NCBI GenBank assembly: GCA_020054095.1 | Contig: JAGVMA010000072.1 | Span: forward strand, 62,001-126,000 | DNA: 64,000 bases | Source of the DNA: Bacteroidia bacterium | Lineage (GTDB): Bacteria; Bacteroidota; Bacteroidia; JADZBD01 | Direction of reading: 5' to 3' | Shown here: positions 23,316 through 25,945 of the stretch, in pieces | Layout of the letters: each line of letters begins with the position of its first letter | How positions within the stretch are numbered: the stretch's first letter is position 1 | Notes under the pieces: model-generated | What the model saw: only the letters and a program-made list of their open reading frames with translations | Told to the model about the DNA's origin: nothing | Databases searched by the model: none | Position numbers and translations under genes: made by a program

Positions 23316-23317
23316 CT

Positions 23318-23348
23318 AATCGCCCCTCAAATTTGTGGGGCGATTTTT
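23318..23348 (+). terminator. Intrinsic terminator after tRNA-Val
   Basis: AATCGCCCC (23318-23326) pairs with GGGGCGATT (23337-23345) around a 10-base loop, followed by TTT. Confidence 0.85.
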
Positions 23349-23350
23349 AT

Positions 23351-23494
23351 ATGCACTATGTTGATATCATATATAGCGATTTAGCTGATAGTTATTATGT
23401 TGGTGAAACCACCGGTGTGGGAGAAAGAGTGGCTCAACATAACACAGGTCTTATAAACGTATCACAAATAATAAATAACCATTGCTTTAACTAA
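23351..23494 (+). pseudogene. GIY-YIG nuclease-like remnant
   Basis: A 47-codon frame starting MHYVDIIYSDLADSYYVGET and continuing GERVAQHNTGL. This is the start of a small GIY-YIG protein (normally about 80-100 residues, beginning HYVYILYS...YYVGES...RLAQHNSG). After the AQHNTG element the homology stops, and the last ~13 residues are unrelated, so the second half is lost. Such small GIY-YIG genes often sit next to tRNA genes in Bacteroidota. It is probably non-functional. Confidence 0.7.
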
Positions 23495-23506
23495 GACTTG
23501 AATTTT

Positions 23507-23536
23507 TTTGACATTATAATTTTCTACATACATTTG
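23507..23536 (+). promoter_or_regulatory. Promoter of the thr leader and thrBC
   Basis: TTTG (23507-23510) and TACATTTG (23529-23536) with 18 bases between, the same geometry as the tRNA-Val promoter. Transcription would begin near 23543, only a few bases before the leader-peptide ATG at 23548. Confidence 0.8.
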
Positions 23537-23547
23537 CGCTCGTAAAA

Positions 23548-23610
23548 ATGAGAACACATAATTCAATAATCAATATTACAATAACAACGATTACTACAAT
23601 TCGATTGTAG
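23548..23610 (+). CDS. thrL: Threonine operon leader peptide
   Basis: A 20-codon frame encoding MRTHNSIINITITTITTIRL. Six residues are Thr and six Ile, with eight Thr/Ile codons in a row at positions 11-18. This is the design of thr attenuation leaders: E. coli thrL is likewise a Thr/Ile string before its thr genes. Its stop codon lies inside the right arm of a 7-bp hairpin (23594-23600 with 23604-23610), and an intrinsic terminator follows before thrB. Uncoupled or scarce Thr-tRNA or Ile-tRNA would stall a ribosome on this string. The symbol is by analogy. Confidence 0.85.
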   Translation: MRTHNSIINITITTITTIRL

Positions 23611-23668
23611 CGAGAGTGTATTGTATTATTTGAAAAACGCCTCGCAAATAATTGCGGGGCGTTTTTTT
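23594..23668 (+). promoter_or_regulatory. Threonine attenuator: pause hairpin, antiterminator and terminator
   Basis: Segment 1 (CTACAAT, 23594-23600) pairs with segment 2 (ATTGTAG, 23604-23610). The following GCGAG (23610-23614) can instead pair with CTCGC (23641-23645), which is also the left arm of the terminator. The terminator is a stem of about 15 bp (23633-23647 with 23652-23666, one G-T pair) with a 4-base loop and an eight-T run. A ribosome stalled on the Thr/Ile codons would cover segment 1, free segment 2 for segment 3 and break the terminator, letting thrB and thrC be made. Confidence 0.8.
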
Positions 23669-23689
23669 TGATTTAAAAAATAAATAAAT

Positions 23690-24634
23690 ATGAAAAATAA
23701 ATTTATTACAGTTTCTGCTCCGGCAACGGTTGCCAATGTTGCCTGTGGTTTTGATGCAATTGGATTTGCCGTAAACAATCCGTGTGATATTGTTTCTGTT
23801 GGCTTAACAAATTTCCCCGGTATTCATATTCATCCAATTGGAGGTGCGTACGGAAGTTTACTTTCTACAAAAGCAGAAATTAATACTGCCGGAGTAGCTA
23901 TACAATCGTTTCTAAATAAAACAAAATACAAAGGAGGAGTTGAAGTAAATTTAACCAAAAACTTGCCATTAGGTAGTGGCATGGGATCGAGTGCCGCAAG
24001 TGCAGCCGCAGCGGTTTATGCAATTAATCTTTTATTTGATAATTTATTTACAGCCGAAGACTTAATACCATTTGCTATGGAAGCTGAGCGCATTGCTTGT
24101 GGCACGGCACATGCAGATAATGTTGCACCGGCATTGCTCGGGGGTTTTGTATTGATTCGCGGCTACAATCCATTAGATGTAGTACAAATTCCATTTCCGG
24201 AAAATTTATATTGTACGATAGTTCACCCGCATATTGAGCTGCGTACCGAAGACTCAAGAAAAGTATTGCCCAAGGAAATATCTTTGAAAAACGGAGTTAC
24301 GCAGTGGAGTAATTTTGCCGGACTCATTTCAGGGCTTACCACAAAAAACTATGAACTTATAGGCCGATCTCTTCAGGATGTAATTGTTGAGCCGGTTAGA
24401 GCAACGCTCATTCCGGGATTTAACGAAGTAAAACAATCGGCAATTAACTCCGGTGTTTTAGGGTGCAGCATTTCCGGCTCAGGCCCTTCCGTTTTCGCAT
24501 TATCGACAGATGAAAGCATTGCAAACAGGGCCGCTATTGCCATGCAGCAAGCATTTGCAAACTATCGTTTAAAAACAGATGCTTACCTATCGCCAATCAA
24601 CATAAATAAGCCACAAATTATTTCTAACAATTAA
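23690..24634 (+). CDS. thrB: Homoserine kinase ThrB
   Basis: 314 residues, a GHMP-family kinase that phosphorylates homoserine in threonine synthesis. The ATP-binding GHMP motif is LPLGSGMGSSAASAAAAV (about 86-103), preceded by SAPATVANVACGFDAIGFAV at the N-terminus. The C-terminal motif is GVLGCSISGSGPSVFAL. It is the first structural gene after the attenuator and lies 12 bp before thrC. The bifunctional aspartokinase/homoserine dehydrogenase gene (thrA), often first in this operon, is not here. Confidence 0.97.
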   Translation: MKNKFITVSAPATVANVACGFDAIGFAVNNPCDIVSVGLTNFPGIHIHPIGGAYGSLLSTKAEINTAGVAIQSFLNKTKYKGGVEVNLTKNLPLGSGMGSSAASAAAAVYAINLLFDNLFTAEDLIPFAMEAERIACGTAHADNVAPALLGGFVLIRGYNPLDVVQIPFPENLYCTIVHPHIELRTEDSRKVLPKEISLKNGVTQWSNFAGLISGLTTKNYELIGRSLQDVIVEPVRATLIPGFNEVKQSAINSGVLGCSISGSGPSVFALSTDESIANRAAIAMQQAFANYRLKTDAYLSPININKPQIISNN

Positions 24635-24646
24635 ATTTTTAGAACA

Positions 24647-25945
24647 ATGAAATATTACAATGTTAGCAATCCATCCGAAAAAGTAGATTTTAAAAATGTA
24701 GTCATGCAGAGTTCAAATAAGAATAATGGGCTATATCTTCCTGAACATATTCCTGTTTTAGATACTACGTTTTTAAAAAATATTAATAAACATAGTTTCG
24801 CTGAAATTTCGTTTCAAGTTGCTAAAGCTATACTTGGTGCTGATATGCCACACAGTGCTTTGCAAAAAACAATTGATGAGGCGCTAAACTTTCCCATTCA
24901 TTTAAAAAATATTCACGATGATAATTATGTGCTTGAACTTTTTCATGGGCCCACAATGGCGTTTAAAGACGTAGGAGCTCGATTTATGTCGGGCTTAGTA
25001 AGCTATTTTATCCAGAGTGAAACTGATGAAATAAATATTTTAGTTGCTACATCAGGAGATACAGGTAGTGCAGTTGCTGCTGCATTTTTAAACAAACCGG
25101 GCATAAAAGTTACCATTCTATATCCATCGGGTCGAGTAAGCTATTTGCAAGAGCAACAATTAACCACAATGGGAAATAATATTACAGCATTAGAAATAGA
25201 TGGCAGTTTTGATGATTGCCAAAGTATGGTAAAAAGTGCTTTTGCTGATATTGATTTGAGCAAAAAATTAAAACTAACATCTGCCAACTCGATTAATTTT
25301 GCCAGACTATTTCCACAGTCATTTTATTATTTCTATGCTTATTCTCAAATTAAAAACAATAAATTACCTCTTGTATTTTCTGTTCCAAGTGGAAATTTCG
25401 GGAATTTAACGGCCGGTATAATTGCGCAAAAAATGGGATTGCCCATTTGGCGATTTGTCGCAGCAACCAATAAAAATAATGTTATTCCGGAATATCTACA
25501 AACCCAAAAATATAATCCTATGCCATCTGTGGCTACTATTTCAAGTGCTATGGATGTAGGCAATCCCAGCAATTTCGAAAGAATAAATGCACTCTACAAT
25601 CATAATTTTTCAGAAATAAAAAATAATATTACTGGTTACGCATTTTCTGATTTTGAAACATGCAAAGCAATAAAAACAGCACTACAAAAACATAAGTACC
25701 TGCTTGAACCTCACGGAGCTGTTGCATATTTAGGGATTTCAAGGTATCTTGAAAAACACAAATGTTGTAGTGTTTTTTTTGAAACAGCTCACCCTGCTAA
25801 ATTTTCGGATGTATTACAATCTGCACTAAATATCGATGTACCAGTGCCCGAAGAATTGAAACATTACTTGGGTAAGAAAAAAAGGAGCATTAAGATGAGC
25901 GCTGATTTTGAGCAACTAAAAGAGTATTTATTAAGCAGTAACTAA
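24647..25945 (+). CDS. thrC: Threonine synthase ThrC
   Basis: 432 residues, a PLP enzyme converting O-phosphohomoserine to threonine. The PLP lysine is K107 in FHGPTMAFKDVGARFM. The phosphate-binding loop is ATSGDTGSAVAAAF, with the FSVPSGNFGNLTAGIIAQKMGLP segment typical of the longer, E. coli-type synthases. The Thr_synth_N domain precedes residue 80. Controlled with thrB by the upstream attenuator. Its last 4 bases overlap the end of the converging histidine kinase. Confidence 0.97.
   Translation: MKYYNVSNPSEKVDFKNVVMQSSNKNNGLYLPEHIPVLDTTFLKNINKHSFAEISFQVAKAILGADMPHSALQKTIDEALNFPIHLKNIHDDNYVLELFHGPTMAFKDVGARFMSGLVSYFIQSETDEINILVATSGDTGSAVAAAFLNKPGIKVTILYPSGRVSYLQEQQLTTMGNNITALEIDGSFDDCQSMVKSAFADIDLSKKLKLTSANSINFARLFPQSFYYFYAYSQIKNNKLPLVFSVPSGNFGNLTAGIIAQKMGLPIWRFVAATNKNNVIPEYLQTQKYNPMPSVATISSAMDVGNPSNFERINALYNHNFSEIKNNITGYAFSDFETCKAIKTALQKHKYLLEPHGAVAYLGISRYLEKHKCCSVFFETAHPAKFSDVLQSALNIDVPVPEELKHYLGKKKRSIKMSADFEQLKEYLLSSN

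Follow-up and report, generated by a model that had tools for sequence, protein, structure and literature searches.

How is the thrBC pair of this Bacteroidia genome controlled, and does the short segment in front of it act as a threonine attenuator? Both genes lie on the forward strand of the window (the whole 64-kb stretch of DNA analysed here), downstream of the putative leader, and both pass curated NCBIfam cut-offs: thrB, encoding homoserine kinase (23690-24634; NF002288, 373 bits, and TIGR00191, 227 bits, both above cut-off), is followed by thrC, encoding threonine synthase (24647-25945; TIGR00260, 293 bits, above cut-off). Upstream of the leader are folC and a tRNA-Val gene. An earlier note on this DNA, made from the sequence alone, had read the segment as a ribosome-stalling attenuator, with a promoter, a 20-codon peptide and alternative RNA stems. 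Bacteroidota promoters carry TTTG at -33 and TAnnTTTG at -7. A promoter of this type was found by direct reading just where the note had put it, on the forward strand at 23507-23536, as TTTG (23507-23510), an 18-base spacer and TACATTTG (23529-23536); a general sigma-70 promoter scan gave 0 forward-strand matches ahead of the leader, in keeping with what is expected of this phylum. Only 11 nt downstream of the end of the -7 element, by direct reading, an ATG opens the leader ORF, which encodes MRTHNSIINITITTITTIRL and ends with a stop codon (23548-23610, forward strand). The description of this peptide proved exact: among its 20 codons are six for Thr and six for Ile, of which eight follow one another without a break, T I T T I T T I, as codons 11-18 (23578-23601, forward strand, direct reading), the putative regulatory codons.

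We compared this ORF with 2000 dinucleotide shuffles of the region 23316-23689. Its Thr/Ile density, 9 per 10 residues, was reached by 0/2000 shuffles, the best of which gave 7, and the fold of the leader RNA (-37.8 kcal/mol) had a z of -6.1 against shuffles. Chance is excluded as the origin of the ORF and of the leader fold. The ORF was also singular in its surroundings: none of the other upstream regions among those of 57 window ORFs contained a comparable Thr/Ile ORF (next best score 5), and no Thr/Ile stretch scoring 8 or more was present on either strand in the rest of the window. A whole-genome search for runs of eight Thr/Ile-type codons revealed no second thr-type leader; the other matches to this pattern, where their surroundings were inspected, all fell within long reading frames.

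The RNA that follows can adopt alternative structures. A 7-bp hairpin, CUACAAU-UCG-AUUGUAG (23594-23610, forward strand, by folding), has its arms at 23594-23600 (CTACAAT) and 23604-23610 (ATTGTAG), and its right arm does finish on the stop codon, the last base of TAG being 23610. On that same base starts the 5' arm of an antiterminator, GCGAGAGUGU (23610-23619, forward strand), which pairs with ACGCCUCGC (23637-23645, forward strand). The pairing of GCGAG (23610-23614) with CTCGC (23641-23645) noticed earlier is real and turned out to be part of a longer helix of nine pairs and one bulged A, GCGAG-a-GUGU with ACGC-CUCGC, with an energy of -13.8 kcal/mol and shuffle p values of 0.003 and 0.014 in two tests. 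Both by folding and by direct reading, its 3' arm is identical with the left arm of an intrinsic terminator (23632-23669, forward strand), which was also found by pattern scan. This terminator, strong as had been claimed, consists of a 15-16 bp stem (-23.3 kcal/mol, z -6.6) followed by eight T at 23662-23669. Antiterminator and terminator are mutually exclusive, both using the terminator left arm.

We then modelled a ribosome on the leader, assuming that it covers 12 nt downstream from the first base of the A site. Placed on any Thr codon, it left 10/10 bases of the antiterminator arm free; on the last Ile codon (18) it still left eight free, and on the stop codon 0/10. Folding at successive transcript lengths agreed with this geometry: when the ribosome occupied codon 14 or codon 17, the exposed RNA folded the antiterminator in transcripts reaching 23645-23655; when it occupied the stop codon, the competing structure was absent and the terminator had formed by 23660. 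Thermodynamically, the complete terminator was the more stable structure in all states and far stronger than the antiterminator, and read-through must therefore be under kinetic control. Known attenuators likewise switch kinetically.

In the mechanism that we propose, the transcript would begin a few bases ahead of the leader ATG. When Thr-tRNA is ample, the ribosome would reach the stop codon and cover bases 23610-23619; with the arm covered, the terminator would fold and transcription would end before thrB. When Thr-tRNA is scarce, the ribosome would stall on codons 11-17 and leave the arm free to capture ACGCCUCGC as it emerges, so that RNA polymerase would continue into thrBC. On RNA free of ribosomes the arm would tend to pair back onto the ORF and the terminator would prevail. 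Folding without a ribosome gave a stem of the ORF (23572-23588) with 23616-23630 that tends to mask the arm, and this weakly supported candidate protector stem (23572-23630, forward strand), which belongs to the minimum-free-energy structure of the naked RNA, may hide the antiterminator arm. Its pairing was no better than shuffles in the thr leader (p 0.75) and not significant across representative thr leaders (p 0.12); stems of this type between ORF and post-stop region in the same genome gave p 0.012 for the trp leader and p 0.22 for the his leader described below. We infer from these features that the leader is translated, that ribosomes stall on it, that transcription terminates there in vivo and that the outcome responds to threonine, and consider it highly probable that the locus is a ribosome-mediated transcription attenuator coupling thrBC expression to charged tRNA-Thr.

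Thr/Ile-rich ORFs were then searched for upstream of thr operons in relatives, a check that the earlier note had proposed. ThrB was found in 86/395 genomes of the class; the upstream DNA of 80 matches was taken and pooled with additional loci, and a leader was defined as an ORF that opens with ATG at most 300 nt upstream of the operon and contains a ten-residue stretch in which 6 or more residues are Thr or Ile. Such an ORF preceded 45/72 thrA-led thr operons against 0.85 expected, and 31/72 reached 7 Thr/Ile per ten against 0.09 expected. The same definition selected a single thrB-led operon (1/13), that of the window. The leader thus normally precedes thrABC, and its thrBC-only position in the window is unusual. 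A second, weaker thrB-led case is locus L120, where a sequence ending in FSTASTATTTLWG stands immediately before thrB. There, in genome G127, the Thr-rich leader ahead of thrB reads MNQDSNIFSSGILLPGNAVSLLFSTASTATTTLWG; about 3 kb of upstream contig contained no thrA, and the locus has no strong terminator. The related leader peptides were dissimilar except for the Thr/Ile run near their end, in which Ile is mixed with Thr. TAnnTTTG occurred at most 21 nt from an in-frame ATG in 16/45 related thr leaders (1.8 expected). The very short 5' end, which in the window is read from the position of the promoter, is therefore common in the group and no quirk of this locus.

That every Bacteroidia thr leader has the terminator was considered and rejected, as 35 survey leaders had no terminator of -12 kcal/mol or better; some of these carry AU-rich hairpins with U-runs. 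Outside one family, most Bacteroidia thr leaders lack a strong GC-rich terminator. The terminator-poor leaders share a compact stop-codon hairpin, ACCCC-UUUU-GGGGU or ACAACCC-UAA-GGGUUGU (loci L007, L080-L083, L091-L099, L102, L111, L113, L119, L124, L128, L139 and L144), which is often followed by ACATATAATCC and, in L096, L113 and L119, by an AU-rich hairpin with a U-run.

For the covariation analysis we used the 15 leaders with strong terminators, one being the window leader and the remaining 14 all coming from a single other family. The only genome of the same family as the window's contains no thrB, and the exact leader is known from one genome. Pairing of each stop-codon arm with the terminator left arm of its own leader gave a mean of -11.4 kcal/mol, compared with -9.3 for swapped arms (p 5e-5). 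Because related sequences are not independent, eight representatives were also tested, and an exact test gave p 4e-4. For the window arm the values were -13.8 kcal/mol with the partner from its own leader and no better than -6.6 with one from any other leader. Examples of arm pairs are GGAGGAAG with CTTCCTCC, GGGGG with CCCCC and CGGGGC with GTCCCG. The antiterminator and terminator arms of these leaders coevolve.

The same genome contains two further leaders. A His leader, MKQFTHIHHHHTFP, precedes hisG (L147:1221-1347) and is followed, before hisG, by the terminator AAAAGGGCTTAC...GTAAGCCCTTTT. A Trp leader of 14 residues with three Trp codons, MRIILNNNWWWLNS, followed by a terminator, lies about 180 nt before trpE (L148, reverse strand). 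The distance from TAnnTTTG to ATG was 14 nt in the his leader and 13 nt in the trp leader, and the arm just past the stop codon paired with the terminator left arm at p 0.036 and 0.042, respectively (0.014 for thr). Both leaders match the thr leader in their parts and in how these are arranged, and all three amino-acid operons examined are thus built alike. The ribosome-stalling reading of the thr locus thus came through codon shuffles, ribosome geometry, co-transcriptional folds, recurrence in relatives, arm coevolution and the his and trp parallels within the genome.

If the leader reports on charged tRNA-Thr, one may ask what its Ile codons are for. In E. coli, thrL senses isoleucine besides threonine, and the window leader could do the same: five of its six Ile codons lie at positions 8-18, Ile also accompanies Thr in the leaders of relatives, ilvD was present in 44/47 genomes searched, nearly all of them leader-bearing, and stalling on Ile codons is still physically possible. 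The gene content of this genome speaks against such sensing. Neither ilvC nor ilvD was found in it (it is rated 100% complete, as a draft of 87 contigs), so Thr is not consumed in making Ile, and the Ile codons can carry no signal of a demand for threonine from isoleucine synthesis; they could be inherited or mere AT-rich neighbours of Thr codons. We consider isoleucine sensing less likely than not and regard the Ile codons as probably inherited or neutral. Of the E. coli thrL logic claimed in the earlier note, the stalling and attenuation design stood and the rationale for the Ile codons did not, since ilvD and ilvC are missing. A fused thrA is also absent from this genome, which encodes two separate aspartokinases and one homoserine dehydrogenase, so that the attenuator would govern the threonine-specific branch (thrBC) only. 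The monofunctional homoserine dehydrogenase closes a sulfate-assimilation/sirohaem cluster (L060:6966-13893), which suggests that homoserine supply is linked to sulfur amino acids.

The terminator might instead be constitutive and serve the tRNA-Val gene, which lies 230 bases upstream on the same strand, or a small RNA, with the ORF being incidental or encoding a small functional protein and thrBC being transcribed from elsewhere. We consider this very unlikely: the tRNA-Val gene already has a terminator-like site right behind it (23325-23340, pattern scan), visual inspection of the 20 bases from terminator to thrB revealed no promoter of the Bacteroidota type, and leaders of the same composition recur in place before thr operons while their remaining residues are unrelated. 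Between the tRNA-Val gene and the thr promoter lies a 47-codon ORF (23351-23494) that matches the first 34 positions of a GIY-YIG domain (0.00027, just under cut-off) and is probably a truncated endonuclease gene adjoining a tRNA. Control of the terminator by a riboswitch or T-box, a metabolite- or tRNA-binding RNA, would be equally compatible with the terminator/antiterminator pair by itself, yet it is very improbable, as it explains neither the run of codons nor the geometry at the stop codon, none of the T-box and riboswitch families attained its gathering score anywhere in the window (where the tRNA was the only match) and the best family match to the leader was Thr_leader, below threshold.

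With ribosome-mediated attenuation as the preferred reading, the survey (45/72 thrA-led thr operons tested) indicates that attenuation is widespread in Bacteroidia. Attenuators are common yet little described in Bacteroidota. To judge from the sequences, textbook leader-peptide attenuation serves to control amino-acid operons generally in a phylum whose translation initiation is not driven by Shine-Dalgarno sites. A bolder proposal is that the thr, his and trp operons of Bacteroidota are under a shared, near-leaderless form of attenuation, the ORF starting bases from the 5' end and using no Shine-Dalgarno sequence, and that in many lineages an undescribed stop-codon hairpin with the conserved ACATATAATCC replaces the strong terminator; we offer this tentatively and think it somewhat unlikely to hold as a whole. 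The window leader yields precise and cheap mutational predictions, and its thrBC-only setting without an Ile pathway is a natural test of which thr-leader codons count.

Leader-peptide attenuation in this phylum has precedents. Bacteroidetes/Chlorobi are reportedly included in the abstract of a 2004 paper by Vitreschak et al. A 2010 survey (PMC2965389) stated that leader peptides were known only from Proteobacteria and Actinobacteria until it added Firmicutes. The earlier note had left open how widely attenuation is described in the phylum. It is not undescribed: a Flavobacterium psychrophilum transcriptome study (PMC9723704) reports strong clues to attenuation before amino-acid operons, the same proposed mechanism in the same phylum, and a study of Bacteroides thetaiotaomicron 5' UTRs (PMC7366714) mentions short leader-like ORFs. 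The main texts of these two papers contain no threonine leader and no structures.

Like the E. coli thrL attenuator, the window leader combines a short ORF of Thr and Ile codons, an antiterminator and a GC-rich terminator with a U-run before thr genes. It has no detectable sequence kinship with thrL, which bears out the impression of an unrelated sequence, and it differs in its Bacteroidota promoter, in an ORF start just 11 nt past the -7 element, in controlling thrBC without thrA and in a host without ilvC and ilvD. It aligns end to end with the Rfam family Thr_leader (RF00506) at 36.5 bits, below the gathering score of 55, and Rfam appears to miss such leaders. The mechanism is, on well-supported sequence grounds, that of E. 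coli thrL, and the leader would function like the Thr_leader family though scoring below it. Nearer parallels are the Bacteroidia thrABC leaders (e.g. L117, L126 and L134), which share the promoter, the short Thr/Ile ORF, the stop-codon antiterminator arm and the strong terminator, but precede thrA and differ in peptide and RNA sequence. Within the genome itself, the his and trp leaders resemble it in promoter type, cognate codon run, post-stop arm and terminator, and differ from it in the cognate amino acid (His, Trp).
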